Positions 15,174 through 64,000 of a stretch of DNA of 64,000 nt are shown here, in pieces. The notes under the pieces were generated by a model, which was not told the DNA's origin, ran no database searches, and worked only from the letters and a program-made list of their open reading frames with translations. Source of the stretch: Marchantia polymorpha subsp. ruderalis (lineage: Eukaryota; Streptophyta; Marchantiopsida; Marchantiales; Marchantiaceae); assembly GCA_037833965.1 (NCBI GenBank), contig AP031352.1, positions 19,572,501-19,636,500 of the forward strand. The letters are read 5' to 3'. A program made the translations under genes and the position numbers. Position 1 is the first letter of the stretch. Every line of letters begins with the position of its first letter.

Positions 15174-15198
15174 ACACACACACACACACACACACACC
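15174..15198. repeat. (AC)n microsatellite in LTR U5
   Basis: An AC run whose length differs between LTR copies (compare 37160-37181, 44207-44232 and the short GT run near 51262). It is a within-family length polymorphism. Confidence 0.9.
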
Positions 15199-15944: not shown

Positions 15945-15954
15945 CTATTTTATA
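15945..15954 (-). promoter_or_regulatory. TATA box of LTR C
   Basis: TATAAAATAG on the minus strand, just downstream of the LTR-ORF stop and about 970 bp before the LTR end. It is found at the same place in copies D, E, F and G. An inverted repeat (15926-15942) follows immediately. It sets the inferred U3/R boundary and puts the ORF in U3. Confidence 0.65.
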
Positions 15955-15990
15955 CCTTCTAAGTCCTAAATAGCACTACACTGTACTACG

Positions 15991-41000: not shown

Positions 41001-41055
41001 AGTGAAATCGCGAATTCAAGAATGGGGCGTCCTCCGTCTCCTGGTCGAAGGTCAT
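38018..41055 (-). pseudogene. LTR-ORF copy D, frameshifted
   Basis: Starts at 41055 and reads openly through the conserved domain (LLWGWNYICVDMVREW, HWARILHRVMRQHPYEEK). A small insertion (about 39911-39933, near KQK) shifts the frame. The Pro-rich and coiled-coil parts continue in the new frame from about 39990. Stops: 38534-38536 (TAG for CAG), TAA near 38519 (for TCA) and a premature TAG at 38018 (for GAG). It shares the YNELKKERLEEL subfamily marker with copy G. Confidence 0.85.
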
Positions 41056-41979: not shown

Positions 41980-42320
41980 TACTCAGCTTTCCGCCTACGC
42001 ACAGGCGAAGAAAGTTTTGTCCTATGCGCGGACGAAGTCAGTTCGCCTACGCATAGGCGAAATAGGGTTTTGACGTAGGCGCGAATGTTGCCTACGCACA
42101 GGCGAGGAAACCTCTGCCCATGCGGACGAGCGAAGTTCGCCTACGCACAGGCGGTCGCCTGCGCACAGGCGCTAGGACGTCGGCGGAAAATCCGCCTTCG
42201 GCCCTAGAAATGCGCCTTCGGAGGTAGAAATTGTACGGCGCCTTCCGCGCCAGCGCGGACGGGCGAGGAGCCGCCGGAGTAGTAAAATCCGTACGGACCG
42301 TACGGACGGGACGGATGGAT
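41980..42320. repeat. Palindrome cluster in the LTR E leader
   Basis: Representative of the leaders of all copies. Examples: CGCCTACGCACAGGCG (41992-42007, 42138-42153), CGCCTACGCATAGGCG (42044-42059), CGCCTGCGCACAGGCG (42156-42171), GCCTTCGGC-type units at 42190-42225, and CCGTACGGACCGTACGG near 42289-42306. Spacing is irregular and the units are 9-16 bp. Confidence 0.85.
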
Positions 42321-44106
42321 GCGCTCTTGGTCGGACGGAGTTGCGGCGGAGAGAGCGCCGACGGAGAGACAAGAGACGGACAGTATGGACGGAGTCGGTT
42401 GACCGCAGTCAACGCCTTCTGCGCCAGCGCAGCAGCGCGGACGGAGTTTGCCTACGCGCAGGCGAGCGCCTACGCACAGGCGGGTGAAGTTCCGCGTCGG
42501 CGGAGATTCCGCCGGGGATTCCGCCTGCGCACATTTGGGAGTTTAACTTTTGTCCGATGCGCGGACGATCGCCTTAGGCGGAGGAGGATTGGCCGAGGAG
42601 CGGTACGAACGAGTGTACCGCGCAAGGCGTAAAAGACGTCTTCGGCGCTGCGCACCTATGTTTGCGGCGTAGTACGCTCGCGGAGTTCAAATTCGCCAAT
42701 TCGAGCGTGTGAGTTAAATCGGCGTCGGCGGAGCGTGAAGCCGCGCGTGAGAGCGAAGACCGTTTTAGCATAGAGCCGGCGCGGCCATCAAGTGATTCGA
42801 CCCTCACAATCAAGAGCCGACCATGACCTTCGACCGGGAGACGGAGAGCGCCCCATTCTTGAATTCGCGATTTCATCTCCTAGTGCGAGCTGCGCAAGTC
42901 CACTTGCTAGCTGCTAAGCATTCCAAACATCGCCGCGTAGAGGATTACTTGTTGATTGAGAGAGAATTGAGTGCGCGCGATTTGGAATTGAGTGAGATTA
43001 GAGTTTGCCGAGGGAGTAAGGAGCTCGAGCGGAGCAGAGAGAGAATTAGCGAGCAAGCGAATTCCAAGAACGCAATGTCGAAGCTGAACCGATTGCGGAT
43101 GCTGCCGCTCCGGCTTCCACAAAACGGGTTGCGCGCCTACGAGGAACGGCTGATTGCAAGAAAGCTCGATTTCTTGCTATGGGGATGGAACTACATTTGT
43201 GTGGATATGGTGCGCGAGTGGCTGGAGCCACAGCGACCACCTTCGCGCGGATTGCGTCCGCATGTTGATCGGTGGACCGTCCAAGATTGGGCGCAGGCCT
43301 TGGGAAGGTGTGCCGGCATCCCAGGGCACCTCCTCTTTGATAGTGAGAGCGTCAAGCTGTCAAAGCAAGACGAGGCGCAATTTGTGGAGTTGTTCAAGCG
43401 GGAGAGGTCTACCAAGAATGGGTACAAGACCCGCGACTACAAAGATCGCTTCCGCCGAACTGTGGCGACGGCGCTGCTGCAATTACTGCAGCCACACCGC
43501 GCCTGCTACATCACCTTGTGGCAGGTTTCTTTTGTGGAGTGCATCATCAAGGGAGCTCCAATTCACTGGGCGAGCATCCTGCACAGAGTGATGCGGCAGC
43601 ACGCGTTTGAGGAGAAGGGGGGAACTCTCAATCACCTCTCCCCTTTCCTGATCAATTTTTATCGACAGCGAAATTGTTTGACTGCGGCGGAACTTGCTCG
43701 CTTTCCGCCATTGTCCGTCGACCATCCCGGGAAGTATGTGCGGGATAACGAGGTCGACACTGACGCAGAGGAGTCACCAGCTTCTACTCCACCGAGGTGG
43801 AGGGACGAGGGAAGAAACACACCCGCAGCAAGAGTGCCGCGGAAGCGTCGATGGAGAGAGGAGTCTGAAGAGGAGCAGCATCGAGAACCCACTGCTCCCA
43901 TTCGACAGCGGCCATTGCACGAAGTGTGCAGTCGACCGAAGCAGAAGGCGCGCAGGCTTGTGTTACCAGCCAGCAGCGCGGACACGGCGACGATCGCCAC
44001 GGAGAAAGTGTAATAACCCACTAAAGGCTAAAACTGCAATATAGTGGTAGAAAGGTCGAACCCACAGGGACAGAGGAACACACAGGGTACAAAGTGTCAC
44101 GTTTTA

Positions 44107-44574
44107 ACAGACTATTGAGAAGTTTGAATTCTCACGCGACTGTCACTCCCAGAAATACTGCAAGTGTCCACTCGGAGCGCACTCGGAGGTCGCACAGTGC
44201 AGCGTAACACACACACACACACACACACACACCTGAAACTACAGAAACACAACCCAGAGATCCGTTAGGACCTCTACTCAAGATTTCAGGGGGAACATCT
44301 CTCAAGAGTACACTCAGCGAAGCTGCGGGTAGTGACTCCCAACTCCGGCTTTTACAACGCTTCCACTAGCTTGCTGCTAGCGTAGGAAACCCGGTTTGGA
44401 CTACTTACTTCGGATCGAAGTCACTCATACGCGGTGAACAACACTCTCAACTCACTAAACACGCAGAGAACACATGTCCGCACAGAAGGACTCACTGAGA
44501 AGCATTCCAGTAACACAATAATAGTCTATTGAAGAGTTTGAATTCTCAAGCACTTGTCATTCCCAGAAATACTA
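44107..44574 (-). repeat. Pair of ~54-bp direct repeats in LTR R/U5
   Basis: 44107-44160 and 44521-44574 are similar direct repeats sharing CTATTGA.GAGTTTGAATTCTCA and TCCCAGAAATACT. The same pair occurs in copy C (15074-15127, 15485-15538) and the other copies, so it is ancestral to the family. Confidence 0.8.
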
Positions 44575-44980
44575 CAGGGGTTACTCTCAAGGCACCTGCT
44601 GCAACGTAACCTGAATTTACAACCAAGGCTTACACGAAGTAGCAAAACTTCACTTTGGCATTTAGGGGAAAAATCCCAAAGGAGTACAATCAGGAACAAA
44701 CACTCGAAGGTGTAGGGGCGAAACTATTCAAGTATCTAACTAGTCACTGGCTCTGAGCATCGGCAATCACCCGCAGGTGTAGATCCGAACTACTCAAGTC
44801 TCTAACCAATGTACTAGCTCTGAACATTCGGCCGAAGGCCTTCAGCTACAAAATGCGGAACGCTAAGTTGTAACTCCTCATGCGTGGTGACAGAACTCAA
44901 GGACACAAACACGCAGAGGAAATGGATTCCTGATCTGCACTTCTGAGTTTGGGAAAGAACCCCAGGCAAAACGCCTGGAA

Positions 44981-44990
44981 CTATTTTATA
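44981..44990 (-). promoter_or_regulatory. TATA box of LTR F
   Basis: TATAAAATAG on the minus strand between the LTR-ORF stop and R/U5. The inverted repeat CCAGGC-GTTTT-GCCTGG (44978-44962) follows at once. Equivalent boxes: 50507-50516 (E), 37948-37939 (D), 56148-56139 (G), 15954-15945 (C). Confidence 0.65.
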
Positions 44991-45026
44991 CCTTCTAAGT
45001 CCTAACTAGCACTACACTGCACTACG

Positions 45027-47360
45027 CTACACGCCTGCACGGAACCACGCTACACTACACTCCGCGGAACCTGTGCTACGTCTCCTGCGCGACGGACTGC
45101 CGCGCACTAACTCCCTACCCTGCCAGTCTTCTGCTCGACTGCGCAGTCCCAACCGCTGCAACGCCGCGGACACCTCCACTTCGAGGGCGGACATGGTATC
45201 CCGCGCCTTCGACAAAAAAGCGTCGAGCTTCTTTGCTACCTTCCGCCGACTCCTGCTGTCGCCTATCAACAACTCGGCTGCGCGAAGTTCAAACTCACGT
45301 AGTGTGAGTTTCTCCTGTGCCGCCACTTCCCAGTGGGCGTAGCCCTTGAGACAGTGGGCGACACGCCTCGCCGTCTCCTCCTTCGTGCGATCTGCCTCTC
45401 GCCTGCGATCCTCTTCAATTACCACTAATTGCGATTCGGCCTCAGCACGCTGCGCTCTCAATTCGCCACACTCTGACTGCAGCCTGCGGATTAAATCCTC
45501 ATCTGCCTGCCGTGCAAGCTGACACTGCTCTAACAACCGCGTCTGTCGCACGAGCTCCTCTGACAAAATCCGATTCTGGGTCTGCTCAGAAATCAGTGCT
45601 TCCGTGACCTTCACCTGCTCCTTGGTGAGCTCTTCCAGTTTCCCATACCTCACCTTTTCGGAGTACTTGTAGAATTTCTGATTGAGGTTATACTGACCCC
45701 ACAAGCATTCATGCTTCTCCTTCAATTCCCTCAACTCCTGGTCCACCCTAGCTAGTAGCTTGCTGGTGTGGACTTTAGTGCGAGTCCGCCTGCGCACTAA
45801 TTCAATGTAAGATCCCGGCTGAAGTGGGTCGGCGTATTTATCGATTTTGCGATCCAAGTACCTCAGCAACGGAATCACCTGCTCAGAGAGCGCCGCCGCC
45901 GACGCTCCAACAATTTCCTCCTCCTCCTCCTTGGTATCCCCCGCTCCCGACATTCTTCGTCGTCCTCGTCTGTCCGCGGAGGCTCGTCCGTCCGCGGAGT
46001 CTCGTCTGTCCGCAGAGGCTCGCCTGTGCGCAAACGGAACACCTGTCCGTAACGCACGTGGTAACTCCGGAGGCCCTTGGCCCGTAGGCGGCCTCCCGTC
46101 CGTCGAGGCTGCAGCGTGGTCCGTTGTTCCTGCGGACGTCCGCGCTCCCTCGTTCTTTTCTGGCGACGCACTTCCTTTCTCCGTCGCAATCGTCGCCGTG
46201 TTCGCGCTGTTGGCTGGTAACACCTGCCTGCGCACCTTCTGCTTCGGCCGGCTGTATGACTCGTACAACGGCCGCGGTCGAATGGGAGCAGAGGGTTCTT
46301 GATGCTGCTCTTCTTCGGACTCCTCTCTCCATCGCCGCTTCCGCAGCGCTCGTGTTGCAGGAGTATTCCTCCCTTCGTCCCTCCTCCTTGACGGAGTAGA
46401 AGTCGGTGACTCCTCTGCATCAGTGTCGACCTCATTCTCCCGCACATACTTCCCGGGATGGTCGACGGACAACGGCGGAAAACGCGCAAGCTCCGCCGCT
46501 GTCAAACAATTCCGCTGTCGATAAAAATTGATGAGGAAAGGAGAGAGATGGTTTAGAGTTCCCCCCTTCTCCTCAAAAGCGTGCTGTCGCATCACCCAGT
46601 GCAGGATGCTCGCCCAGTGAATGGGAGTTCCCTCGATGATGCACTCCACAAAAGAGACCTGCCACAATGTGATGTAGCTGGCGCGGTGTGGCTGTAGTAA
46701 TTGCAGCAGCGCCGTGGACAAAGTCCGGCGGAATCGATCCTTGTAATCGCGGGTCTTGTACCCATTCTTGGTAGACCTCCCGTTCTTGAACAGCTCCACG
46801 AATTGTGCCTCTTCCTGCTTGGTCATCTTGACGCTCTCACTATCGAAGAGGAGGTGCCCTGGCATGCCGGCACATCTCCCCAATGCATGCGCCCAATCTT
46901 GGACCGTCCACCGATCAACATGCGGACGCAATCCGCGCGAAGGTGGTCCCTGTGGCTCTAGCCTCTCGCGCACCATATCCGCACAGATGTAGTTCCACCC
47001 CCATAGTAAGAAATCGAGCTTTCTTGCTAGCAGGCGCTCCTCGAAAGCGCGCAGCCCGTTCTGTGGTAGACGGAGCGGCAGCATCCGCAATCGGCCCGGT
47101 CTCGTCATTGCGTTCTTGGAGTTCGCCCGCCCGCTCATTCCACTTCCGCTCCGCTCGAGCTCCTTTCTTCCTCGGCAAACTCTAATCGCCCTCAATTCCA
47201 AATCACGCGCACTCACTTCTCCCTCAATCACCAAGAAATCCTCCGCGCGGCGATGTCGAGAATGCTTAGCAGCCAGCAGATGGACGCGCGCAGCTCGCAC
47301 TAGAGAATGGAATCGCGAATTCAAGAATGGGACGCTCTCCGCCTCCCGGTCGAAGGTCAT
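45027..47360 (-). CDS. LTR-ORF copy F, the only uninterrupted copy (777 aa)
   Basis: ATG at 47360 in the context shared by all copies (MTFDRE...). The conserved domain fills roughly residues 50-310: LLWGWNYICADMVRE, HLLFDSESVKMTKQEE, NGYKTRDYKDRFRR, LLQLLQPHRASYITLWQVSF, IHWASILHWVMRQHAF, FLINFYRQRNCLTAAEL. The Pro/Ala-rich middle is cut to about 150 residues by an in-frame deletion near 45955 (RGRRRMSGAG). Then come an acidic EEEEE run, a coiled coil of about 250 residues rich in E/R/L heptads, and an Arg/Ser tail. No enzymatic motif is seen. The layout recalls plant-transposon accessory proteins that pair a conserved domain with a coiled coil, but that is only an inference. Function unknown. 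Confidence 0.8.
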   Translation of the reverse strand: MTFDREAESVPFLNSRFHSLVRAARVHLLAAKHSRHRRAEDFLVIEGEVSARDLELRAIRVCRGRKELERSGSGMSGRANSKNAMTRPGRLRMLPLRLPQNGLRAFEERLLARKLDFLLWGWNYICADMVRERLEPQGPPSRGLRPHVDRWTVQDWAHALGRCAGMPGHLLFDSESVKMTKQEEAQFVELFKNGRSTKNGYKTRDYKDRFRRTLSTALLQLLQPHRASYITLWQVSFVECIIEGTPIHWASILHWVMRQHAFEEKGGTLNHLSPFLINFYRQRNCLTAAELARFPPLSVDHPGKYVRENEVDTDAEESPTSTPSRRRDEGRNTPATRALRKRRWREESEEEQHQEPSAPIRPRPLYESYSRPKQKVRRQVLPANSANTATIATEKGSASPEKNEGARTSAGTTDHAAASTDGRPPTGQGPPELPRALRTGVPFAHRRASADRRDSADGRASADRRGRRRMSGAGDTKEEEEEIVGASAAALSEQVIPLLRYLDRKIDKYADPLQPGSYIELVRRRTRTKVHTSKLLARVDQELRELKEKHECLWGQYNLNQKFYKYSEKVRYGKLEELTKEQVKVTEALISEQTQNRILSEELVRQTRLLEQCQLARQADEDLIRRLQSECGELRAQRAEAESQLVVIEEDRRREADRTKEETARRVAHCLKGYAHWEVAAQEKLTLREFELRAAELLIGDSRSRRKVAKKLDAFLSKARDTMSALEVEVSAALQRLGLRSRAEDWQGRELVRGSPSRRRRSTGSAECSVAWFRAGV

Positions 47361-50300
47361 GGTCGGCTCTTGCTCGTGGAGGACGACTCAATTGATGGCC
47401 GCGCCGGCTCTAAGCTGAAACGGTCTCCGCTCTCACGCGCGGCTTCACGCTCCGCCGTCGCCGATTAAACTCTCACACTCGAATTGGCGAATTTGAACTC
47501 CGCGAGCGTACTACGCCGCGGACATGGGTGTGCAGCGCCGAAGGCGGATTTTCCGCCTTGCGCGGTACACTCGTTCGTACCGCTCCTTAGCCAATCCTCT
47601 CCTGCCTCGGCACGTGTGTCCGCATGTCGGACGAAAGTTCATATCCCGCCTGCGCGCAGGCGGACTCCTTGGCGGATTCTCCGCCGGCGCGGAACTTCAC
47701 CCTCCTGTGCACAGGCGCTCGCCTGTGCGCAGGCGAAGTCCGTCCGCGTCGATGCGCTGGCGCGGAAGGCGTTGACCGCGGTCAACCACCTCCGTCCAGA
47801 CTGTCCGTTCCTTGTCTCTCCGTCGGCGCTCTCGCCGCCGCAACTCCGTCCGTCCAAGAGCGCATCCATCCGTCCCGTCCGTGCAGTCCGCACGGTCCGT
47901 ACGGATTTTACTATTCTGGCGGCTCCTTGCTCGTCCGCGGCGCTGCGCTGGCGCGGAAGGCGCCGTACAATTTCTACCTCACAAGGCGCATTTCTAGGGC
48001 CCAAGGCGGATTTCTCGCCGACGCCCACGCGCCTGTGCACAGGCGCTCGCCTGTGAGTAGGCGAACTTCGCGCCTACCTCAAAACCCTATTTCGCCTGTG
48101 CGCAGGCGAACTTCCTTCGTCCGCGCATAGGACAAAACTTCTCCGCCTGTGCGCAGGCGAAGAGCTGAGTATCTTACAACCTTCATAACTCCCAGAGTCC
48201 TCATCCGTTGTTGGCGTTCTTGGGCTCGTTGGAATCAGCGCATCGAGCTCTTTCCAACAAGACCCTAACTAAGTCAAGGCGTCCGGGGGTTGACCTAAAT
48301 ATGAAGGATTTCCCTACCGCCGCGGACGCAGCTCCGAAGGCGGGTTTTGCGCCTTGCGCCGTAGGGATCCTAACTGCAGAGCTCGCAGGGAGAGTGGTGC
48401 CCGCCCTTACCGCTACACCCCACTCCTAGATTCTACGAGGTCCCTCGAGAATCTCTGCGATCTTCCGAATTCACTCTGTTTTGATGCACCGAAGGCTATT
48501 TACATTGCTGCTAGGGTACAGTTTTCCAAAAATGTTTTAATTTCCTCAAAATTACCAAAAGTGGGGTACCACAGAAAGGAAGTGCGTCGCCGGGGAGAAA
48601 CGAGGGAGCGCGGACGTCTGCAGGAGCGACGGACCACGCTGCACCTCCGATGGATGAGAGGCGGCCTTTGGGCCAAGGGCCTCCGGAGTTACCACATGCG
48701 ATGCGGACGAGTGTTCCGCCTGCGCACAGGCGAGCTTCAACGGAAAGGCGACCCCAAGCGGACGGGGACCTACGCCTACGCGTAGGCAGAGAAAGTCCGC
48801 CTACGCACAGGCGTTTGCCTGCGCACAGGCAGGATTCACCCCCGGTCCAACGTAGGAAGGGGAAAGAACCGGCGGAAGATCCGCCTACGGGTCAAGGGCC
48901 TTCGGGACCAGACCCTCCGGCGTACAACGCGCCGCGATTTGCGCCTTCAGCGCCAGGGCCTGCGGGTCAACGAGATGTGAGCAGGGAGCATGCGGAGACC
49001 GCACCTTTGGCGGGTAATCCGCCGGTAGATGCGCCTTCGGCGGTAGGGCCTTCGGGGCCAGGGACATCGGGCGAGCGGCCTCCGGTTATGTCGCCTTCGG
49101 CGATAGACGCCTTCAGCGCTGCGCCTGCGGCAGACAAGGCGCCGGTATTTGCGCCTGCGCACAAGCCAGACATAGCCCTCGCGCAGGACCGATCGAAGGA
49201 GCAGGATCTAACGGAGGAGCGGACTGTCTGTCCGCGGGACGAAATTCAGGTGCGCGATGCGCAATTACACCCCGCGCAGACACACTCCGCTCGATCGCCT
49301 TCGGCAGCGGACGTCGGCGGCGAAGAGGATATAGTCGAGGCTCAACAGGCGGATGAGGGGGATGTAGCACTGCCACATTCACCCACCGCCTTAGACATTT
49401 TGGCGGGGAGCAGCGAAGCTGCAGGAGTGCCTTTGGAGGCAGCACCCGTCGACGACGTGCAGCCCCACTCGGGGCAGTCGCCAACGCAATCAATGGCGAC
49501 TGAAATCCTTCCCTCGGATGATGACGACGGGGGCTCCACAGAAGCAATGTCGGGGTCAGGAGATACCGAGGAGGAGGAGGAGGAAATTGTTGGAGCGCCT
49601 GCGGCGGCGCTCTCTTAGCAGGTCATACCGTTGCTGAAGTACTTGGATCGCAAATTTGATAAATACACCGATCCACTCTAGCCGGGATCCTACATCGAAT
49701 TAGTGCGCAGGCGGACTCGCACTAAAGTCCACACCAGCAAGCTACTAGCTAGGGTGGACCAGGAGCTGAAGGAATTGAGGGAGAAGCATGCCTGTTTGTG
49801 GGGTCAGTACAACCTTGTGAGGAAATTGCACGCCCTCGACAAGATGAAGAAGGAGAGACTGGAAGAGCTCACCAGGGATGTGGTGAAGACCACGACGGAA
49901 TTGATTTCTGAGAAAACTCAGAATCAGATTCTGTCAGAGGATCTCGTGCGACAGACGCGGTTGTTGGCGGAGTGTCAGCTCGCACGACAGGCGGATGAGG
50001 ATTTAATCCGCAGGCTACAGTCGGAGTGCGGGGAATTGAGAGCGTAGCGTGCGGAGGCCGAATCGCAGTTGGTGGTAATTGAAGATGATCGCAAGCGAGA
50101 GGCAGATCGCACGAAGGAGGAGATGGCGAGGCGTGTCGCCCACTGTCTCAAGGGCTACGCCCACAGGGAAGTGGCGGCGCAGGAGAAACTCACACTGCGT
50201 GAGTTAGAGCTTCGCGCAGCTGGGTTGTTGACAGGTGACAGTAGGAGTCGGCGGAAGGTGGCGAAGAAGTTAGACTCTTTTCTGTCGAAGGCGCGGGATA

Positions 50301-52253
50301 CCATCTTTACCCTCGAGGTGGAGGTGTCCGCGGCGTTGTAGCGTTTAGGACTGCGCAGTCGAGCGGAAGACTGGCAGGGTAGGGAGTTAGTGCGCGGCAG
50401 TCCGTCGCGCAGGAGACGAAGCACAGGTTCCGCGGAGTGTAGGGTAGCGTGGTTCCGTGCAGGCGTGTAGCGTAGTGCAGTGTAGTGCTAGTTAGGACTT
50501 AGAAGGTATAAAGTAGTTCAAGGCGTTTTGCCTTGGGTTCTTTCCCAATTTCAGAAGTGCAGATCAGGAACTCATTTTCTCTGCGTGTTTGTGTCCTTAG
50601 ACTGTCACCACGCAAGAGGAGCTACAACTTGGCGTTCCGCATTTTGTAGCTGGAGGCCTCCGGCCGAATGTTCAGAGCTAGTACATTGGTTAGAGACTTG
50701 AGTAGTTCGGATCTACACTTGCGGGTGACTGCCGATGCTCAGAGCCAGTGACTAGTTAGATACTTGAATAGTTTCGCCCCTACACCTTCGAGTGTTTGTT
50801 TCTAGTTGTACTCCTTCGGGATTTTTCCCCTGAATGCCAAAGTGAAGTTTTGTTACTTCGTGTAAGCCTTGGTTGTAAATTCAGGTTACGCTGCAGTTGG
50901 TGCCTTCAGGGTAACCCTTGTAGTATTTCTGGGAATGACGAGTGCCTGAGAATTCAAACTCTTTAATAGACTGTTATTGTGTTACTGGAATGTTTCTTAG
51001 TGAGTCCTTCAGTGCGGACCTGTGTTCTCTGCGCGTTTTGTGAGTTGAGAGTGTTGTTCACCGCGTATGAGTGACTTCGATCCGAAGTAGGCAGTCCAAA
51101 CCGGATTTCCTACGCTAGCAGCAAGCTAGTGGAAGTGTTGTAATAGCCGGAGTTGGGAGTCACTATCCGCAGCTTCGCTGAGTGTACTCTTGAGAGACCT
51201 TCCCCCTGAAATCTTGAGTAGAGGTCCTAACGGATCTCTGGGTTGTGTTTCTGTAGTTTCAGGTGTGTGAGTGTGTGTGTTACGCTGCACTGTGCGACCT
51301 CCGAGTGCGCTCCGAGTGGACACTTGCAGTATTTCTGGGAGTGACAGTCGCCTGAGAATTCAAACTCCTCAATAGTCTGTTAAAACGTGACACTTTGTAC
51401 CCTGTGTGTTCCTCTGTCCCTGTGGATTCGACCTTTCTACCACTATATTGCAGTTTTAGCCTTTAGTGGGTTATTACACCGGCCGAAGGCGCACTCGTCC
51501 GTTCCGTCCTTACAGTCGGTTCGGTCCGTACGGATTTTACTACTCCGTTGGGTCCTCGCCCGTCCCCGCTGCTGCGCTGGCGCCGAAGGCGCCGTACAAT
51601 TTCCAACCCCGAAGGCGCATTTCTAGGGCCGAAGGCGGATTTCCCGCCGACGCCGAAGCGCCTGTGCGTAGGCGGTCTTCGCTCGTCCGCCTGTGCAGAG
51701 GTGTTAGTCCTCCCCGCCTACGAGTAGGCGACATTCGCGGCAGACACCCTGCCGACGTCAAACCCTATTTCGCCTACGCGTAGGCAGACTTCCCTCGTCC
51801 GCGCATAGGACAAACTTTGCTCGCCTACTCGTAGGCGAGAAGCTGAGTGTCTTGCGACCTTCATAACTCCCAGAGTCCTCCTCTGTTCGTGGCGTTCTTG
51901 GGCTCGTTAGAATCAGCGCGTTGAGCTCTTTCCAACGAGACCCTAACCAAGTCAAGGCGTTTGGGTATTGACCAGGTTCTGAAGGATTCCTCTAGCGCCG
52001 AAGGCGCAGCGCCGAAGGCGGATTTCGCGCCTTGCGCCGAAGGGGTTACTTCCTCAGAGCCCGAATCTAGGGCGGTGCCTGTCCCAGATGTTGCGCCCAA
52101 CTCCTGGATTCTACGAGTTCTCTTGAGATTCACCGAGATCGTCCAGTTTCACTCTATTTTGATGTACCGATGGCTATTAACACTGCTGCCGCGGTACAGT
52201 TTTCCAAAAATGTTTTAATTTCCTCAAAAATACCAAAAGTGGGGTACCACATG

Positions 52254-52264
52254 CTCCCCTCCTC
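52254..52264 (-). promoter_or_regulatory. Polypurine tract before the 3' LTR
   Basis: GAGGAGGGGAG on the minus strand, three bases before the TGTGG start of LTR D. This is the expected plus-strand priming site and fixes the 5' edge of the LTR. Confidence 0.85.
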
Positions 52265-52288
52265 AATTGTGAGCACCCACACGAACAC

Positions 52289-55200
52289 TCATACGTGATA
52301 TTTCTTCAACCGCCACCCGTTCACTCGGGTGCCTAGTAATTCTCCTGTCAAGTCCGCAAGTTGGATGGATCCATTCGGAAAGACTTCGACGACCTTGTAT
52401 GGTCCCATCCATCTTAGGTGCAGTTTGCTTGGGAATCTGGCATGCCTACTGTCGTAGAGCAGCGCCAAATCGCCCTTCTGAAGGAGTACAGGTTTAATCC
52501 TCTTATCGTATCTCTCCTTTTCTACGGAGCTGAATTCGCCTGGTGCGTTCCTCGGCTTTGCGTCTCCTTTCCTCCAGTACCATGACTTCCTGCAATCTGT
52601 AGAGTTGACTCTCCTCCGCACTCACCCTATTTAGGTCCAACGTTCGTTGGGTGGGTACTTCGAATTCGATCGGCAGGATCGGATGTTGACCATACACCAA
52701 AAAGTATGGTGTCTATTTTGTCGTAATCTTCTCAGCTGTCCGGTACGCCCACAACGCGGCTGCTAACTTTGTATCCCAGTCGTAAGCGTGGTTTACCGTG
52801 ACCTTGAGCAGTATTTTACACAACAGACCATTGGACTCCTCCGTCAATCCATTCGCCTTGGGATTGTATGGGGTAGTCTTCCGGTGCTTGATGTGAAAAT
52901 GCCGTGTCAGATCTTCGATTATCTGGTTCAAAAAGTGTGTGCCTCGGTCGCTGACTAGTTCTAAAGGACATCCGTAGCGCGTGATGATCGATTCGAACAA
53001 GAAGGCTGCTACTGTGGCTACATTATCCCTTCGAGTGGCCTTGGCCTCCACCATCTTGGTGGCGTAGTCCGTAGCTACCAGGATATAGCGCCTTCGTGTG
53101 TTTCTAGTCACTGGTTGTATTGGCCCTACGAAGTCGATGCCCCACTTCTCAAAAGGTGCTAGAGGCATGATGGAAGTCAGGGGCCACCGTGTTGTAGGCG
53201 TTGGTCTCCCTGTCCTCTAGCAGCTGTCGCATTTTCGAATGTAATCGAGAACATCCTTAAACATGGTCGGCCACCAATACCCCGCATTTACAATCTTCGT
53301 GACTGTATTCCGGGTGGCATAGTGACCACCCGCATCTTCAGTGTGCATCGCGCTTACGACCCTTGGGACCTCTGATTCCTCCAGGCATCTGCACAAACGT
53401 TCGTCTGCCATCTTCTTGAACAAAACTCCTTGTTGGAGTTGGTACGGGCCAGCCTTATGTATAAAGACAATCCTTTGTTCCAAGTCCATGCCCTCCGGAC
53501 ACTGAAGCGTGAGCAGGTACCGGTACAACTCTGCATATCGGGATTCCTACCCCGCGGACAACTGAAACAGCTATTAGTCCGGAAAGTCGTCCACCAGTTC
53601 CTCCTCGGTAGGCTGGGTCCATAATCTAGATAAGTAATCCGCGTTTTCATGATGCACCCCCTTCCTGGTCTAGACCGTGTAAGTGAACTCCTGCAGCAAC
53701 AGCACCCATCTGGCTATCCGACCAGACAGATCTGCTTTCTTGACTAGGTGCTGCAAGGCGTAGTGATCCACATGGAACACAAACTCGTAGCAGATTAAGT
53801 AGTGTCTAAACTTCTTGCAGGAGTACACCATCCCCAACGCCTCTCTCTCCGTCGTGGTGTACTTCCTTTCTGCTAGAGACAGCTGACGGCTCGCAAAATA
53901 AATTGGGTAGTCCTTTTTGTTGTCATCCTTCTGGCTCAAGACGACACTGATGGCGAATGCCGATGTGTCGACGTAGACATGGAAAGGTCGATCCCAGTCT
54001 GGACTCCTTAGTACTGGAGCGGTCGTGAGTTTCGCTTTAAGAGCCTCGAATGCTGACTGCTGCTTCTCACCCCATTCATAAGGCTCGTCCTTCTTTAACA
54101 ACTTGGTCAGGTCGGCCGCCAAGATTGCATACATGTGTATGAATCTTCGGTAGTAGCCCACATGACCCAGAAATGCTCGCAGCTCCCTCACATTCGTCGG
54201 TGGCTCTAGCTCGAGGATGACCTTAACCTTCTCGATGTCCACTGCAATGCCGTCCGACGAACACGATGGCCCAACAAGATTCCACTAGTCATAAAGAAAA
54301 AACACTTCTCGGGGTGCAGCGATAAACTGCTCTCCCTGTATTTATCAAAGGTCTGTTTCAGGTGACTCACGTGTTCTGACCGTTTTCCAAAGACACAGAA
54401 GTCGTCTATGAATATTTCTAGGAACTTCCTCAGCTGCTCTTGAAAAATATTGTTCATCATCCGCTGAAAGGTGGCAGGTGCATTGCACAGACCGAAGGGC
54501 ATCTTGTGATACGCATAGGTTCCCCAATCGGTTGTGAATGTCGTCTTATCCTTGTCCTTTTCCCGGATAGACACCTGATTGTAGCTTGAAAACCCGTCTA
54601 GGAAGCTATAGCACTCATGTCCCGTGACATGGTCTAAAATGGCATCCGTGAACGGCAGAGGGTGGTGATCCTTCCGCGTTGCTGCGTTCAACTTTCTCAA
54701 ATCCTAACACACCCGTATCTTACCCGTTCAACTCTTTGGGTACGATGACAATGGGTGATACCCATTCACTGTTGAGCACTGGGTAAATAATACCGGCGCT
54801 TAGATACTTATCTATCTCCTCCTTAACTAGCAAGAAGTATTTTGGGTTTAGGCGATACAGGCGTTGACATATGGAACTGCTTCATCCAATAAATCAATGC
54901 GGTGTTCTCCATACCGCGCAGGTATCCCCTTCATGTCTTCTATCCTCCAGGCGAAGACGTAGTGGAGGAAGGTCTGTACCTCCCTTAGCTCTTCTCCTTT
55001 CACTGTGCTTGATACCTTCAAGCACTTGCCAAGACTAAATTGTACTTTGTGACAGTCACTAGTATCGACAATGCCTTCCGTGTGACTCGTCTCACTTCTT
55101 CCCAATCCCACCGTTAATTGCTATTCGTCCTCCGGCTGAATAGCGTCTGGTTCCTCTTCTATAGAACAGCAGGCAACGAATCCCACAAAATAATCGGATT

Positions 55201-55354
55201 CGGTGGCACTGGAGTCTGATCGGACGGACGAATCACTGTCCACCCCCGATGTGTAACCCGCACTAGTCGATGGTGTCTCCCCTTCATGGTGGATCTTGGT
55301 CCAGGGAACAGTGATAGTCCTGGTCGGCTCTTTGGGATGGGGAAACACATTGGA
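52289..55354 (-). pseudogene. Ty3/Gypsy pol (RT, RNase H, integrase) of the long-LTR element
   Basis: From 55330 downward: a pol linker with FAWRIEDMKGIP (a plant Tat/Athila-like marker), RT (KMPFGLCNAPATFQRMM, active site IFIDDF), RNase H (YVDTSAF, TEREAL), integrase zinc-binding H-H-C-C (HTEDAGGH ... CDSC), integrase core with D, D and E (GIDFVGP, SDRGTH, E 35 residues later), and a C-terminal RWMGPYKVV...VNGWRLKKYH module ending at 52289. There is no chromodomain. Frameshifts lie near 54860, 54715 and 54250, with stops at 53670, near 53575, 53217 and 52713 among others. At 55354 it is joined abruptly to LTR G; gag, protease and primer-binding site are deleted. Not functional as found. Confidence 0.9.
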
Positions 55355-58046
55355 TCGCACAGTGCAGCGTAAGACACACACACAAACACACCTGAAACTA
55401 CAGAAACACAACCCAGAGATCCGTTAGGACATCTACTCAAGATTTCAGGGGGAAGATCTCTCAACAGTACACTCAGCAAAGCTGCGGGTAGTGACTTCCA
55501 ACTCCGGCTTTTACAACACTCCCACTAGCTTGCTGCTAGCGTAGGAAATCCGGTTTGGACTGCCTACTTCGGATCGAAGTACTCATACGCGGTGAACAAC
55601 ACTCTCAACTCACAAAACGCGCAGAGAACACAGGTCCGCACAGAAGGACTCACTTAGAAACATTCCAGTACCACACCATAACAGTCTATTGAAGAGTTTG
55701 AATTCTTAGGCACTTGTCATTCCTAGAAATACTACAGGGGTTACCCCAAAGGCACCTGCTGCAGCGTAACCTGAATTTACAACCAAGGCTTACACGAAGT
55801 AGCAAAACTTCACTTTGGCATTCAGGGGAAAAATCCCAAAGGAGTACAATCAGGAACAAACACTCGAAGGTGTAGGGGCGAAACTATTCAAGTATCTAAC
55901 TAGTCACTTGCTCTAAGCATCGGCAATCACCCGCAGGTGTAGATCCGAACTACTCAAGTCTCTAACCAATGTACTAGCTCTGAACATTCCGCCGAAGGCC
56001 TTCAGCTACAAAATGCGGAACGCCAAGTTGTAGCCCCTCTTGCGTGGTGACAGAACTAAGGACACAAACACGAAGAGAAAATGAGTTCATGATCTGCACT
56101 TCCGAAACTGGAAAAATCCCAAGGCAAGACGCCTTGAACTACTTTATACCTTCGAAGTCCTAACTAGCACTACACAACACTACGCTACACGCCTGCACGG
56201 AACCACGCTACACTACACTGCGCGGAACCTGTGCTTTGCCTCCTGCGCGACGGACTGCCACGCACTAACTCCCTACCCTGCCAGTCTTCCGCTCGATTGC
56301 GGAGTCCCAATCGCTGCAACGCCGCGGACACCTCCGCCTCGAGGGTGGACATGGTATCCCGCGCCTTTGACAGAAAGGAGTCTAACTTCTTCGCTACCCG
56401 CCGCCGACTCCGACTGTCACCCGTCAACAACCCAGCCGCACGAAGCTCTAACTCACGCAGTGTGAGTTTCTCCTGCGCCGCCACTTCCCAGTGGGCGTAA
56501 CCCTTGAGACAGTGGGCGACTCGCCTCACCATCTCCTCCTTCGTGCGATCTGCCTCTCGCCTGCGATCATCTTCAATCACCATCAACTGTTATTCGGTCT
56601 CCGCACGCTGAGCTCTCAATTCTCCGCACTCCGACAGCAGCCTGCGGATCAAATCCTCATCCGCCTGTCGTGCGAGCTGACATTGCTCTAACAACCGCGT
56701 CTGTTGCACGAGCTCCTCTGACAGAACCTGATTCAAAGTCTTCTCAGAAATCAGTTCTTCTGTGGTCCTCACCACATCTTTGGTGAGCTCCTCCAGTCTC
56801 TCCTTCTTCAACTCGTTGTAGGTGTGCGACTTCCGCACGAGATTATACTGTCCCCGTAAGCAGTCATACTACTCTCGCAACTCCTTAAGTTCCCGGTCCA
56901 CCCGAGCTAGCAGCTTGCTGGTGTGGACTTTAGTGCGAGTTCGCCTGCGCACTAACTCGACGTAGGACCAAGGCTGGCGAGGATCCGCGTATTTATCAAT
57001 TTTGCGGTCCAAGTACCTCAGCAGAGGTACTACCTGCTCACAGAGCGCCGCCGTCGGCGCTCCAACAATTTCTTCCTCCTCCTCGGAGTCTCCCAATCCC
57101 GACATTGCTTCCATGGATCCTCCTTCGTCATTATCAGAAGGAAGGATCTCGGTCGCCATTGATTGCGTTGGCGACTGGCCCGAGTGGGGCTGCGAGTGGT
57201 CTGCGGGTGCTGCCGCCGATGGCACTCCTGCAGCTTTGCTGCTCCCCGCTAAAATGTCCAAGGCAGTGGGTGAATGTGGCCGTGCTACATCCCCATCATC
57301 CGCCTGTCGAGCATCGATCGTCGCTCCTTCACCGCCGAAGGCGATCGAGCGGGATGTGTCTGCGCGGGGTGTAATTGCGCATAGCGCACTCGAATTTCGT
57401 CCCGCGGACGTACAATCTGCTCCTCCGTTAGGTCCTGCTCGAGGGCTGCGTCTGGCCTGCGCGTAGGCGCAATTTCCGGCGCCTGGTCCGCCGCAGGCGC
57501 AGCGCCGAAGGCGTCTATCGCCGAAGGCGACAGAGCCGAAGGCCGCCCGCCCTATGTACCTTGGCCCGAAGGCCCTACCGCCGAAGGCGCATCTACCGGC
57601 GGGTTCCCCGCCGAAGGTGCGGTCTTCGCACGCTCCCTGCTAATGTCTCGATGGTCCGAAGGCCCCAGCGCCGAAGGCGCAAATCGCGGCGCGTTACACG
57701 CCGGAGGGCCTTGCCCCGAAGGCCCTTGACCCGAAGGGGGATCTTCCGCCGGCTCCTTTCCCTTCCTACGTTGTACAAGGGGTGAATCCTGCCTACTCGT
57801 AGGCGGCCGCTTGTGCGTAGGCGAACTTTCTCTGCCTACGCGTAGGCAGAGGTCCACGTCTGCAAGAGGTCGCCTATCTGCTTGGAGTCGCCTGTGCGTA
57901 GGCGAAACACTCGTCCGCATCGCACGTGGTAACTCCGGAGGACCTTGTCCCGCAGTCCCTTGGCCCAAAGACCGCCTCTCGTCCGCCGGAGATGTAGCGT
58001 GGTCCACCGCTCCTGCGGACGTCCGCGCTCTCCCCATCGTCTCCGG
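55355..58046 (-). mobile_element. LTR copy G, truncated at both ends; probable 5' LTR of the D element
   Basis: Minus-strand R/U5, TATA box (56148-56139) and the C-terminal two-thirds of the LTR-ORF. The LTR end and the leader with the N-terminal ORF part are missing. Joins are at about 55355 (to pol) and 58046 (to a plus-strand protease fragment). Subfamily residues match copy D, and orientation and order (G, pol, D) fit a single element. Confidence 0.75.
56185..58046 (-). pseudogene. LTR-ORF copy G, C-terminal part
   Basis: The Pro-rich region (58037-57552, ending at a TAG), a frame change between 57552 and 57261, then the acidic stretch and coiled coil. Stops at 56869-56871 (TAG; CAG in copy D) and near 56588. 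It ends at the natural AWFRAGV stop (56185). Confidence 0.8.
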
Positions 58047-58267
58047 TCAGATCAGACGCAGAGGCTGCCTTTAGGCATGCTGCGCAATATCCGAACCAAC
58101 ATCGGAGGTGCAGAGTTTCCATTAAACTATATCATCCTGCAACCTCTGCTGAAGCAAGGCTATGACATCCTGCTCGGGCGACCGTGGCTTTATGACGCGC
58201 AAGTACGATGTGACTGGTGTAGGCATCGCCTTAAATTTCCCCACTCCAAACATCCGTCCAGGACTAT
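58047..58267 (+). pseudogene. Gypsy aspartic protease fragment
   Basis: Plus strand. Encodes the C-terminal half of a retrotransposon protease, GYDILLGRPWLYDAQVRCDW, with the ILLGRPW signature of plant Tat/Athila-type Gypsy elements. The catalytic D-(S/T)-G is not present. It is flanked by truncated LTR G on the left and cut by the start of LTR H at 58268, so it was the target of the H element. Confidence 0.75.
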
Positions 58268-61200
58268 TGTGGTACCCCACTTTTGGTAATTTGGAAGAAA
58301 TTAAAACATTTTTGGAAAACTGTACCACGGCAGTAGTGTAAATAGCCTTCGGTGCATCAAAATAGAGTGAATTCGGAAGATCGCAGAGATTCTTAAGGGA
58401 CCTCGTAGAATCTAGGAGTTGGGTGCAGCGTCAAGGAAGGGCACCACCCTCCCTGCAAGCTCTGAAGGTATCATCCCTTCGGCGCAAGGCGCAAAATCCG
58501 CCTTCGGCGCTGCGCCCTCGGCGGTAGGGAAATCCTTCATATTTAGGTCAACCTCCAAACGCCTTGACCTGGTTAGGGTCTCGTTGGAAAGAGCTTGACG
58601 CGCTGATTCCAACGAGCCCAAGAACGCCAACAACAAATGAGGACTCCGGGAGTTATGAAGGTTGTAAGATACTCAGCTTTCCCCCTTCGCACAAGCGAAG
58701 AAAGTTTTGTCCTATGCGCGGACGAAGGAAGTTCGCCTGCGCACAGGCGAAATAGGGTTTTGATGTAGGCGCGAAGTTTGCCTACGCACAGGCGTCCGCA
58801 TGTGCACAGGCACTTCGGCGTCGGCGGGAAATCCGCCTTCGGCCCTAGAAATGCGCCTTCGGAGGTAGAAATTGTACGGCGCCTTCTGCGCAGGCGGGTG
58901 AAGTTCCGCGCCGGCGGAGAATCCGCCGAGGAGTCCGCCTGCGCACAGGCGGGAGTTGAACTATTGTCCGACGTGCGGACAAGCGCCGGGGCGGAGGAGG
59001 ATTGGCTGAGGAGCGGTACGAACGAGTGTACCGCGCAAGGCGGAAAAGCCGCCTTCGGCGCTGCGCACCCATGTCCGCGGCGTAGTACGCTCGGGGAGTT
59101 CAAATTCGCCAATTCGAGCGTGTGAGTTAAATCGGCGTCGGCGGAGCGTGAAGCCGCGCGTGAGAGCGGAGACCGTTTTAGCGTAGAGCCGGCGCGGCCA
59201 TCAATTGAGTCGATCCTCACGGGCAAGAGCCGACCATGACCTTCGACCGGGAGACGGAGAGCGTCCCATTCTTGAATTCGCGATTCCATTTTCTAGTGCG
59301 AGCTGCGCGCGTCCATCTGCTAGCTGCTAAGCATTCCCGATATCGCCGCGCAGAGGATTACTTGGTGATTGAGAGAGAAGTGAGTGCGCGTGATTTGGAA
59401 TTGAGTGAGATTAGAGTTTGCCGAGGAAGCAAGGAGCTCGAGCGGAGCAGAGGGAGAATTAGCGAACAGGCGAATTCCAAGAACGCAATGTCGAGACTGA
59501 ACCGATTGCGGATGCTGCCGCTCCGACTTCCACAGAACGGGCTGCGCGCTTACGAGGAACGGCTGATTGCAAGAAAGCTCAATTTCTTGCTATGGGGATG
59601 GAACTACATTTGTGTGGATATGGTGCGCGAGTGGCTAGAGCCACAGAGACCACCTTCGCGCGGATTGCGTCCGCATGTCGATCGGTGGACGGTCCAAGAT
59701 TGGGCGCAGGCATTGGGGAGGTGTGCCGGCATCCCAGGGCACCTCCTCTTTGATAGTGAGAGCGTCAAGGTGTCTAAGCAGGACAAGGCGCAATTTGTGA
59801 AGTTGTTCAAGCGGGAGAAGTCTACCAAGAATGGGTACAAGACCCGCGATTACAAGGATCGTTTCCGCCGAACTGTGGTTACGGCGATGCTGCAATTACT
59901 GCAGCCACACCGCGCCTGCTACATCACATTGTGGCAGGTCTCTTTTGTGGAGTGCATCATCGAGGGAGCTCCAATTCACTGGGCGAGCATCCTACACAGA
60001 GTGATGCGACAGCACGCTTTTGAGGAGAAGGGGGGAACTCTAAATCACCTCTCTCCTTTCCTGATCAATTTTTATCGGAAGCGAAATTGTTTGACCGCGG
60101 CGGAGCTTGCTCATTTTCCGCCGTTGTCCGTCGACCTTCCCGGGAAGTATGTGCGGGATAACGAGGTCGACACTGACGCAGAGGAGTCGCCAACTTCTAC
60201 TCCGCCAAGGCGGAGGGACGAAGGAAGAAACACTCCTGCAGCAAGAGTGCCGCGGAAGCGGCGATGGAGAGAGGAGTCCGAAGAGGAGCAGCATCAAGAA
60301 CCCACTGCTTTCATTCGGCAGCGGCCGTTGCACGAAGTGTGCAGCCGGCCGAAGCAAAAGGCGCGCAGGCTTGTGTTACCGGCCAGCAGCGCGGACACGG
60401 CGACGATCGCCACGGAGAAAGGAAGTGCGTCGCCGGAGAAGAACGAGGGAGCGCGGACGTCTGCAGGAGCAACGGACCACGCTGCACCTTCGACGGACGA
60501 GAGGCAGCCTACGGGCCAAGGGCCTCCAAAGTTACCACGTGCGATGCGGACGGGTGTTCCGCCTGCGCACAGGCGTGCCTCGACGGAAAGGCGATCCCAA
60601 GCGGACGTGGACCTACGCCTACGCGTAGGCAGATGCAGTCCGCCTGTGCACATGCCGCCTGCGCAAAGGCAGGATTCACCCCCGTTCCAACGTAGGAAGG
60701 GGAAGGAGCCGGCGGAAGATCCGCCTACGGGTCAAGGGCCTTCGGGACCAGACCCTCCGGCGCCCAACGCGCCGCGATTTGCGCCTTCGGCGCCAGGGCC
60801 TTCGGGCCAACGAGATGCGAGCAGGGAGCGTGCGGAGGCCGCACCTTCGGCGGGTAATCCGCCGGTAGATGCGCCTTTGGCGGTAGGGCCTTCGGGCCAA
60901 GGGACATCGGGCGAGCGGCCTCCGGCTATGTCGCCTTCGGCGATAGATGCCTTCGGCGCGGCACCTGCGGCGGACAAGGCGCCGGCATTTGCGCCTGCGC
61001 ACAGGCCAGGCACAGCCCTCGCGCAGGACCGATCGAGGGAGCAGGACCTGACGGAGGAGCGGATTGTCTGTTTGCGGGACGAAATTTCGGTGCGCGATGC
61101 GCAATCAAACCCCGCACAGACACACTCCGCTCGATCGCCTTCGGCGGCGGACGTCGGCGGCAAAGAGGATACGGTCGAAGATCGACAAGCGGGCGACGGG

Positions 61201-62385
61201 GATGTAGCACGGCCACATTCGCCCACCGCCTTGGACATTTTAGCGAAGAGCACCGAAGCTGCAGCTGTGCCTTCGCAGGCAGCACCTGTAGACGACGTGC
61301 AGCCCCACTCGGGTCAGTCGCCAACGCAATCAATGGCGACTGAAATCCTTAACTCGGATGATGACGACGGAGGCTGCACAGAAGCAATGTCGGGAGCAGG
61401 GGATACCGAGGAGGAGGAGGAGGAAATTGTTGGAGCGCCGGCGGCGGCGCTCTCTGAGCAGGTGATACCGTTGCTAAAGTACTTGGATCGCAAATTTGAT
61501 AAATACGCCGATCCACTCCAGCCGGGATCCTACATCGAATTAGTGCGCAGGCGGACTCGCACTAAAGTCCACACTAGCAAGCTACTAGCTAGGACGGACC
61601 GGGAGTTGAAGGACTTGAGGGAGAAGCATGCCTGTTTGTGGGGTCAGTACAACCTTGTGAGGAAATCGCACGCCCTCGACAGGATGAAGAAGGAGAGACT
61701 GGAAGAGCTCACCGGGGATGTGGTGAAGACCACGACAGATTTGATGTCTGAGAGAACTCAGAATTAGATTCTGTCAGAGGAGCTCGTGCGACAGACGCGT
61801 TTGTTGGCGGAGTGTCAGCTCGCACGACAGGCGGATGAGGATTTAATCCGCAGGCTACAGTCGGAGTGTGGGGAATTGAGAGCGCAGCGTGCGGAGGCCG
61901 AATCGCAGTTGGTGGTAATTGAAGATGATCGCAGGCGAGAGGCAGATCGCACGAAGGAGGAGATGGCGAGGCGTGTCGCCCACTGTCTCAAGGGCTACGC
62001 CCACAGGGAAGTGGCGGCGCAGGAGAAACTCACACTGCGTGAGTTAGAGCTTCGCGCAGTAGGGTTGTTGGCAGGTGACAGCAGGAGTCGGCGGAAGGTG
62101 GCGAAGAGTTAGACGCTTTTCTGTCGAAGGCGCGGGATACCATGTCCACCCTCGAGGGTTGTGTTTCTGTAGTTTCAGGTGTGTGTGTTACGCTGGACTG
62201 TGCGACCTCCGAGTGCGCTCCGAGTGGACACTTGCAGTATTTCTGGGAGTGACAGTCGCCTGAGAATTCAAACTCCTCAATAGTCTGTTAAACGTGACAC
62301 TTTGTACCCTGTGTGTTCCTCTGTCCTTGTGGGTTCCACCTTTCTACCACTATATTGCAGTTTTAGCCTTTAGTGGGTTATTACA
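58268..62385 (+). mobile_element. 5' LTR of the plus-strand Gypsy element, copy H
   Basis: Starts TGTGGTACCCC at 58268 and ends GTGGGTTATTACA at 62385, followed by a primer-binding site and gag. It carries a leader of about 970 bp, the LTR-ORF, and a deletion of about 0.92 kb joining ORF codon ~965 (near 62157) to the middle of R/U5. The deletion removes the ORF end and the TATA box. The left flank is ACTAT; the matching duplication would be outside the window. Confidence 0.92.
59236..62157 (+). pseudogene. LTR-ORF copy H, nearly intact
   Basis: Open from ATG 59236 for 843 codons through the conserved domain, the full Pro/Ala-rich region, the acidic stretch and the start of the coiled coil. 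A TAG at 61765-61767 replaces CAG of other copies. The same frame then continues (LAECQLARQADED...) to a one-base deletion at about 62105, and the copy ends at the deletion junction near 62157. The Pro-rich region is dense in GCCTTCGGC and CGCCTGCGCACAGGCG-type palindromes read as APSA, PSGQ and PAHRR. Confidence 0.85.
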
Positions 62386-62407: not shown

Positions 62408-62425
62408 TGGCGCCGCTGCCGGGGA
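62408..62425 (+). promoter_or_regulatory. Primer-binding site, tRNA-Asp type
   Basis: TGGCGCCGCTGCCGGGGA matches the complement of the plant tRNA-Asp 3' end with one mismatch. It lies 22 nt after the LTR end and marks the start of the internal region of the element. Confidence 0.85.
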
Positions 62426-62471: not shown

Positions 62472-64000
62472 ATGTCGACTGGAGCTAGTGGGAGCAACCT
62501 AAGTGCGAGAGCTGCCTGCAAGTTCCGATGAGATTCAGAGAAGGCCGTGGAAGAGACACGGCGTCAAAACAAGAAAACACCAAAAAGAGTACCTAAGCCT
62601 AGTTCGGCCGACATCCTTGGGGAAACTAACCCCAGTGACTCGGAACCAAACCTGGTGCTTACAGTTCTACTAGATATTCCTTGCACGGACCCCCCTCGTG
62701 ATTTAGAACCGACCGCCCGAGAAACATCGACAGACACACCGATGGCGGACGGACCAGCCAATGCGCGGCCACCTCAGCCGATTACTAAGCATTCCTATCC
62801 AAAGTATAAAGGAAGTGGGGATGACGACGATGCAGATTCCTACATCAAGTTGTTTGAATCAGTGTCCATCGCCAATCGCGAGATCCACGACGAGGACCGA
62901 CTACGGATCTTTCCAAGTCTTCTACGGAAGAAGGCACGAAGTTGGTACAACCACGAGAGCATCGATCCGAATGGGTTGACAACATGGGCTCAGCTGAAGG
63001 AGAAGTTCCTTCGACGCTTCCGTGAGCTCGGCTACGACAGTCGGGTATTGACAAAGTTACGTAACCTGCAGCGGGAGAAGGAGAGTCTGCGTGACTACAC
63101 CGAGAGATTTCTGGACCTCCTTGACAGAATACCGAAAACGGGACCAGGGTCCCCTTTCTCGGTACAGCAAGCTGTGGATTGGTATGTGACCGGCTTAACT
63201 CGGGAGATGGAGACTTTTTGCCGACGCAGAAAGTGCGATACTATCGAGGACGTGATTGCATCGGCCGAAGCCTTCGAAACTTCCACTCTCAACCGAAGAG
63301 GGAGAGAGAGACGGGAGTCGAAGGAGCGAAAACCGAAGGGAGGGCGAAGACGACGCAGAGGCGCAACTCCGTCATCGGAAGAACAGTCCTCGGACGAGAA
63401 TCGTTCCTCATCCGAAGAAGAGGAAACCTCCTCGTCGGAGGAAGAGAAGAAGAGAAAGAAGCATGGGGCAGCAAAGAAGAAGGGCCCCCAACGAGCGACT
63501 ATGGACAGAGCACCGGGAGACATGGCATCGAAGATGGAGACCCTTGTGAAGGACTTCGCCGACCTCAAAGTTCAAGTGGTAGGCGGCCAGGATCGACGAA
63601 AATCTCCCGGAAGAGTGCGGGCGAACTTGTGGTGCACTACGTGCGGAGCGGTGGGACATGCGAACACCGAGTGTCTTACCAACCGTCCGTCATATCCAGT
63701 CAACGCAGTGGAGTGGGCACAACCGTACTATGGGAAAAACCCCCAGTACTATGGAGAGGCGAGCGAAGAGACAGCCTACGCCGTTCAGTTGGTCCCCGCC
63801 CCTACTGCAGTTACGCAAGTGCATATCCCCCGGTATCATCCGGTAGATAGGGCCACTACGGTACCCGTGAGGCGCAGGGCACCTCCAGGGTTGTTTGACC
63901 CACCGCCACCGCGAGCTTGTTTTAATTGTGGGGAAGTTGGACACTACTCCCCTCAGTGTCCCCATCCCAAAAGGCAAACCGGGTATGTCCCGACCTGTAG
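62472..64000 (+). CDS. gag: Gag polyprotein, partial (runs off the window)
   Basis: Structural capsid/nucleocapsid protein of the plus-strand Gypsy element. One frame is open from ATG 62472 to the window end except for a TGA at 62529-62531. The next ATG in frame is 62742 (MADGPANARPP). Domains: a retrotransposon gag core (about 62790-63250: YKGSGDDDDADSYIKLF, RKKARSWYN, WAQLKEKFLRRF, YTERFLDLLD), a basic/acidic Arg-Ser-Glu linker, then two CX2CX4HX4C zinc knuckles at 63633-63674 (CTTCGAVGHANTEC) and 63918-63959 (CFNCGEVGHYSPQC). The knuckles are typical nucleocapsid RNA-binding motifs. Protease and pol would lie beyond the window. If translation starts at 62742 the TGA is outside the gene; otherwise it is a single nonsense change. 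Confidence 0.88.

Follow-up and report, generated by a model that had tools for sequence, protein, structure and literature searches.

A probable U3-borne accessory gene in the long terminal repeats of a Marchantia Ty3/Gypsy retrotransposon family

LTRs containing a large reading frame

We examined a 64,000-bp stretch (the window) of the Marchantia polymorpha subsp. ruderalis genome (C3:19572501-19636500; 241 Mb in nine contigs), and found copies of a Ty3/Gypsy retrotransposon family whose long terminal repeat (LTR) contains a large accessory open reading frame (ORF). The LTRs start with TGTGGTACC or a variant of it and end with TTATTACA, and perfect 5-bp target duplications surround three of them (GTGGC, CCGGC and GAAAG; Table 1). 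The full LTR is about 5.4 kb: some 1.2 kb of noncoding sequence (1.15–1.25 kb), assigned below to U3 (the unique 3′ region), precedes the ORF, which is followed by a TATA box and then by ~0.97 kb to the LTR end. Between the two LTRs, the internal region comprises ~5.8 kb of gag-pol and closes with a polypurine tract (PPT) that abuts the LTR edge. A first-pass annotation of the window had placed the ORF entirely inside a Gypsy LTR, which stands, and had sized it at ~1,030 codons, which does not: intact copies have 1,045 or 1,050. Its three solo LTRs with 5-bp duplications were recovered, as was its 3′ LTR after pol and a PPT (36972-52251, preceded by TTGAGGAGGGGAGCA); its net LTR lengths of 5,324, 5,317 and 5,388 bp fit 14977-20300, 41592-51478 once the nested LTR is subtracted, and the split 36972-52251. 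The copy at 58268-62385 is, as claimed, a 5′ LTR before a primer-binding site (PBS) and gag, but two deletions leave it at 4,118 bp, and a TAG interrupts its frame.

The domain order is that of Ty3/Gypsy elements (protease, reverse transcriptase (RT), RNase H, integrase), as read from copy L016 together with window positions. Window positions 62386-64000 are 97.9% identical to L016, which has a zinc knuckle and a protease match, and the RT at 52289-55345 was assigned by alignment to L016, whose own RT is a Pfam match. The Pfam scan covered six pieces from two copies, five of them with matches (that to protease below cut-off). No second RNase H domain, such as distinguishes Tat elements with an additional RNase H, appeared in these six pieces; in the minus-strand pol of the window, ~120 bp separates the end of the RNase H piece (53670) from the start of the piece with the integrase zinc finger (53546). 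We tentatively give the element an Athila/Tat-type placement; its type of PBS and its integrase tail appear to be like those of that group.

An exact search of the genome found 1,159 LTR-PBS and 681 PPT-LTR junctions, and none for reversed-pattern controls; about 100 places of each type were listed. Among the first 100 PBS junctions listed, 30 have a PPT junction at 5.70–5.85 kb on the same strand. Both LTRs were fetched for six such pairs as candidate full-length elements. Four are complete, with matching 5-bp duplications (CTGCT, GCGCC, ATTCC and CCTGT) and two full LTRs of 5,387–5,414 bp (5,391/5,391, 5,412/5,414, 5,387/5,387 and 5,388/5,403 bp); partner LTRs mismatch at 0/5391, 8/5412, 0/5387 and 9/5388 positions. 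The ORF is intact (1,045 or 1,050 residues) in all eight of these LTRs, bearing out the earlier prediction of two gene copies per element. In the fifth pair the 5′ LTR and its ORF are intact and the match to the 3′ LTR ends after about 2.6 kb; the sixth is an older element with both LTRs disrupted. The opposite outcome, an internal ORF beside a short true LTR of ~1 kb, had been named in advance as fatal to the first-pass annotation; it is ruled out by the ORF inside both LTRs of full-length copies.

A search with the 1,045-residue protein gave 44 scored matches, all at 99–100% identity and 41 without an internal stop; these are the best of 13,728 first-look candidates and no random sample, and some come in pairs from the two LTRs of a single element. 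Six of the 44 fall in the region covered by both junction lists: three have a PBS or PPT junction (one of these has a stop), and three have neither and are all uninterrupted. These last look solo, though mutated junctions could have escaped the exact patterns. On contig C1 an exact PBS junction follows 16 of 72 exact LTR ends. Diverged relatives of the ORF are widespread; a search with the Marchantia gene model P0002 gave 144 matched stretches at 51–98% identity (the best 63 of 12,878 candidates), with stops in most of the long ones. The 3′ LTR of a diverged subfamily (L013, repeated in segmental copies L014 and L015) shows pol, PPT and LTR start, then homology, at the level of sequence, to the N-terminal part of the ORF.

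Coding constraint and the encoded protein

Substitution patterns argue strongly for purifying selection on the ORF between elements. The ratio of nonsynonymous to synonymous substitution rates (dN/dS; Nei-Gojobori) is 0.098–0.260, with a mean of 0.158, for 10 pairs from five young elements; the first-pass annotation had proposed this check, and between recent lineages the ratio (0.10–0.26) is not near 1. Variable columns among six aligned young ORFs number 28, 23 and 99 at codon positions 1, 2 and 3. As a frame control, the same DNA was read in the five other frames: four give dN/dS of 1.37, 2.08, 1.65 and 2.59, and the fifth, an antisense frame with the same third positions, gives 0.225. Among five young copies, one 15-bp stretch accounts for all variation in ORF length, while the noncoding U3 upstream is gapped in several places. 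By region, three young pairs give 0.065–0.112 for the N-terminal part, 0.070–0.134 for the C-terminal part and 0.212–0.328 for the middle, which is loosest. Within one element, partner LTRs L035 and L036 differ by one synonymous and six nonsynonymous changes, which are small numbers; ORF changes after insertion look like neutral drift.

Older copies give dN/dS of 0.30–0.96 among themselves (66 pairs) and 0.25–0.39 against one young copy (12 pairs). This table holds 13 of 32 scored copies, leaving out near-duplicates (L014, L015, L023, L024), truncated or interrupted copies (L017, L020, L026, L028, L037, L040) and nine young LTRs handled separately; rows with window copy C are excluded from all figures. 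By region, five older copies against one young give 0.22–0.29 (N-terminal), 0.35–0.50 (middle) and 0.17–0.34 (C-terminal). For the older pair L016 and window element D, dN/dS is 0.231 for RT and 0.286 for the ORF, so that by this estimate the ORF is nearly as constrained as RT in the one older pair compared. A chance ORF is rejected by the coding constraint seen in young pairs, frame control and RT comparison.

The ORF protein has a conserved N-terminal region, the basic motifs PRKRRW and RPKQKARR, a proline/serine-rich middle, an acidic run and a C-terminal coiled coil. No Pfam family matched it above cut-off. Weak Pfam matches in relatives, of coiled-coil or low-complexity type, were set aside: Extensin_1 (0.00019) and CENP-K (0.0018), both below cut-off, and SCNM1_acidic (0.0013). 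Transposase_28 (PF04195) was matched by none of 38 aligned ORF members at E up to 1, and a PDB search with the window copy found no solved structure beyond one chance match (E 0.22). The top 19-residue Kyte-Doolittle mean is 1.14 in one intact copy, so a membrane span is unexpected. The ORF was the query in two protein searches, each limited to the ~7,990 candidates that share most words, which gave 4 and 42 matches; the named ones (4/4 and 34/42) are all from Marchantia polymorpha subsp. ruderalis, with no relative outside Marchantia among them. We propose that the protein is a nuclear accessory factor that serves retrotransposition or counters host silencing, by analogy with the accessory ORF proteins of Grande, which is nuclear, and Retand, which is probably DNA-binding (PMC7264820; PMC11963269, both seen in part).

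Relatives of this transposon ORF are labeled as host hypothetical proteins in Marchantia gene models (P0002-P0005 and other AXG93_ proteins), and P0002 omits part of the ORF frame in the manner of an annotated intron. Caution is called for with annotated hypothetical proteins of Marchantia (AXG93_ models), which include the transposon ORF.

Placement in U3 and its alternatives

The sole TATAWAW motif follows the ORF, within GTATAAAATAG, in all nine young LTRs; where measured (five LTRs), the motif starts 36 bp past the ORF stop, with 970–980 bp left to the LTR end. The ATG context, ACCATGA, is identical in all five young copies measured. Because this only TATA-type motif comes after the ORF, it supports placing the whole ORF upstream of the predicted LTR transcription start, that is in U3, as the first-pass annotation had reasoned. 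We give a probability of about 0.8 to the family being a Ty3/Gypsy LTR retrotransposon of Marchantia with a complete accessory gene in U3. The anatomy of the LTR-borne ORF and the selection on it are the strong parts of this reading, held with high confidence; the function of its protein and its mode of expression are the weak steps, on which our proposals stand at somewhat less than even odds.

Under the U3 reading, genomic RNA would start downstream of the TATA box in the 5′ LTR, pass through gag-pol and have a single copy of the ORF close to its 3′ end. Reverse transcription would copy U3 to both ends, giving two identical genes per insertion, and LTR-LTR recombination would remove gag-pol and retain the gene. 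Entry of the gene into U3 may date from a switch of plus-strand priming to an upstream purine tract; a shifted priming site would be a simple route for moving a gene into an LTR. More doubtfully, every LTR, solo ones included, could be a gene complete in itself, with a 5′ region of its own and the LTR terminator, and many dispersed copies, outliving gag-pol, could form a pool that serves active elements in trans, as a helper or against silencing. A large selected gene wholly in U3 would be duplicated by reverse transcription at every insertion, and would be kept by solo-LTR formation, through which elements are commonly lost; the arrangement would alter how host genomes may retain long-lived coding remnants. 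Marchantia is a tractable model for the expression and function of the ORF.

Several observations weigh against this reading. R (the repeat region) is located by the TATA box alone. No second TATAWAW, the one promoter motif sought, precedes the ORF in young LTRs, and the 1.15–1.25 kb before it contains five to eight ATGs, which together make simple scanning from the LTR start unlikely; an ORF made from a U3-internal promoter or from spliced RNA appears more likely. Many copies are decayed, with only nine of 32 scored copies free of in-frame stops and frameshifts, all nine in young elements, and most diverged relatives of the ORF contain stops. For pol, the control comprises a single older pair. 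AlphaFold2 models are poor (mean predicted local distance difference test, pLDDT, 44.5 and 45.3), the C-terminal coiled coil of the first model being the sole confident part.

Were the ORF instead in R, transcription would start upstream of it and genomic RNA would carry it before gag too, like some Tat extra ORFs. The ~1.2 kb of noncoding LTR before the ORF could house a promoter for this, and TATA-less promoters exist, but a 3-kb ORF would then stand ahead of gag, upstream ATGs are present, and the position of the TATAWAW in the nine young LTRs speaks for a start after the ORF; we consider R placement improbable. An env-like gene for cell-to-cell movement or membrane fusion would agree with a sense ORF after pol, which is the position of env-like accessory ORFs (PMC7264820, seen in part). 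It is made very improbable by the hydropathy maximum of 1.14, with which no transmembrane span is expected, by the long charged and proline-rich stretches, and by the lack of any Pfam match above cut-off.

It is likewise improbable that the ORF is a captured host gene hitchhiking with no role for the element. Gene capture is known for plant elements (PMC7264820), but homologous sequence, mostly with stops, is present in diverged subfamilies, the single pair compared shows constraint near that on RT, and the named matches of the two protein searches limited to ~7,990 candidates each are all from Marchantia, where no dedicated search for a single-copy host parent was made. The three duplication-flanked units without gag-pol in the window could also suggest a separate 5.4-kb transposon with TG/CA ends, often adjoining Gypsy elements, rather than an LTR. 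For the four complete elements this is refuted, their paired copies flanking one internal region within one common target duplication and differing by 0–9 mismatches; with the junction pairing at 5.70–5.85 kb in 30 of the first 100 PBS junctions listed, the chance of a separate transposon is close to nil.

Literature on LTR-borne ORFs and on Marchantia or liverwort elements was covered as parts of open-licence text without supplements. Within that scope a large ORF in U3 is known from a mouse retrovirus and was not found in described plant elements, which agrees with the first-pass annotation, to which no described plant family with an LTR-borne ORF was known. In mouse mammary tumor virus (MMTV), sag (and naf) is a complete accessory ORF inside the U3 of the LTR, and sag can use a promoter within U3 (PMC9412291); the Marchantia ORF, with its TATA box after it, resembles this. 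The likeness is positional, with no viral protein among the 42 listed protein matches; MMTV is a mouse virus with env, whereas the liverwort ORF has 1,045–1,050 codons in a 5.4-kb LTR. Retand, Grande and RIRE2 (Transposase_28) share with the Marchantia family a plant Gypsy accessory gene 3′ of pol (PMC7264820; PMC11963269), but theirs is antisense and lies between pol and the 3′ LTR, whereas the Marchantia ORF is sense and inside the LTR. Retand LTRs are 315–1,194 bp (PMC11963269) against ~5.4 kb here, and the Retand-type Transposase_28 domain has no match in the Marchantia ORF.

Extra ORFs occur in most Athila/Tat elements, and non-chromovirus LTRs reach about 5 kb (PMC6317226). The Marchantia family is like Athila/Tat (OTA) in being non-chromovirus Gypsy with an extra ORF, large LTRs and short target duplications (4 or 5 bp there, 5 bp here); unlike it, no extra ORF is said in the available text of that article to sit inside an LTR, though its tables might hold unnoticed ones. 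The plant accessory ORFs covered by the articles consulted lie in the internal region of elements. Gypsy elements without an additional RNase H have been reported for both Marchantia genomes studied, with no LTR ORF mentioned in the text available (PMC10508981). For M. polymorpha 222 full-length LTR elements have been reported, in text from which the word ORF is absent (PMC9985172), and the parts available of PMC8547701 and PMC11117352 have nothing on LTR ORFs.

Other features of the window and genome

Table 1. Features of the element family, with window positions unless a contig is named
Feature	Position	Strand
5′ LTR, 4,118 bp, two internal deletions relative to full copies	58268..62385	+
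Accessory ORF of the 58268-62385 copy, 843 codons to TAG (61765-61767); frame reopens to 62112	59236..61767	+
PBS TGGCGCCGCTGCCGGGGA, 22 bp beyond the LTR end	62408..62425	+
gag start, extending beyond the window end	62742..64000	+
Solo LTR, 5,324 bp, duplication GTGGC, ORF with 4 in-frame stops	14977..20300	-
Solo LTR, duplication CCGGC, interrupted by nested LTR 44009-48573	41592..51478	+
Solo LTR nested in 41592-51478, duplication GAAAG, ~0.8 kb missing	44009..48573	-
Accessory ORF of nested solo LTR 44009-48573, 777 codons, without the middle part	45027..47360	-
3′ LTR of older element (36972-41591 + 51479-52251), split by solo LTR 41592-51478	36972..52251	-
PPT TTGAGGAGGGGAGCA, immediately before 3′ LTR 36972-52251	52252..52266	-
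Decayed pol of the 36972-52251 element: RT, RNase H, integrase zinc finger and core	52289..55345	-
Truncated LTR fragment, same family	55355..58047	-
Diverged, internally deleted LTR, related subfamily	20904..23220	+
Head-to-tail array	C2:31345313-31384634	-
Head-to-tail array	C3:10615793-10641359	
Head-to-tail array	C3:20852730-20874934	
Head-to-tail array	C3:22622615-22645030	

In the head-to-tail arrays, element junctions or ORFs repeat with a near-constant period of 11,092–11,210 bp, which is the combined length of an LTR and an internal region; unequal recombination with shared LTRs could produce such a pattern. On contig C1 (5.6 Mb), perhaps a sex chromosome, a nested element layout repeats near 2416453, 2822820 and 3165333, at spacings of ~406 kb and ~343 kb, which suggests large segmental duplications. 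Within the LTR, a stretch of ~52 bp, noted by eye, occurs twice after the TATA box (L029 4952-5005 and 5360-5412), and GC-rich motifs such as CGCCTGCGCACAGGCG and CCTTCGGCG are common to the noncoding U3 and the ORF linker (window 58440-61020; L029 2789-2865).
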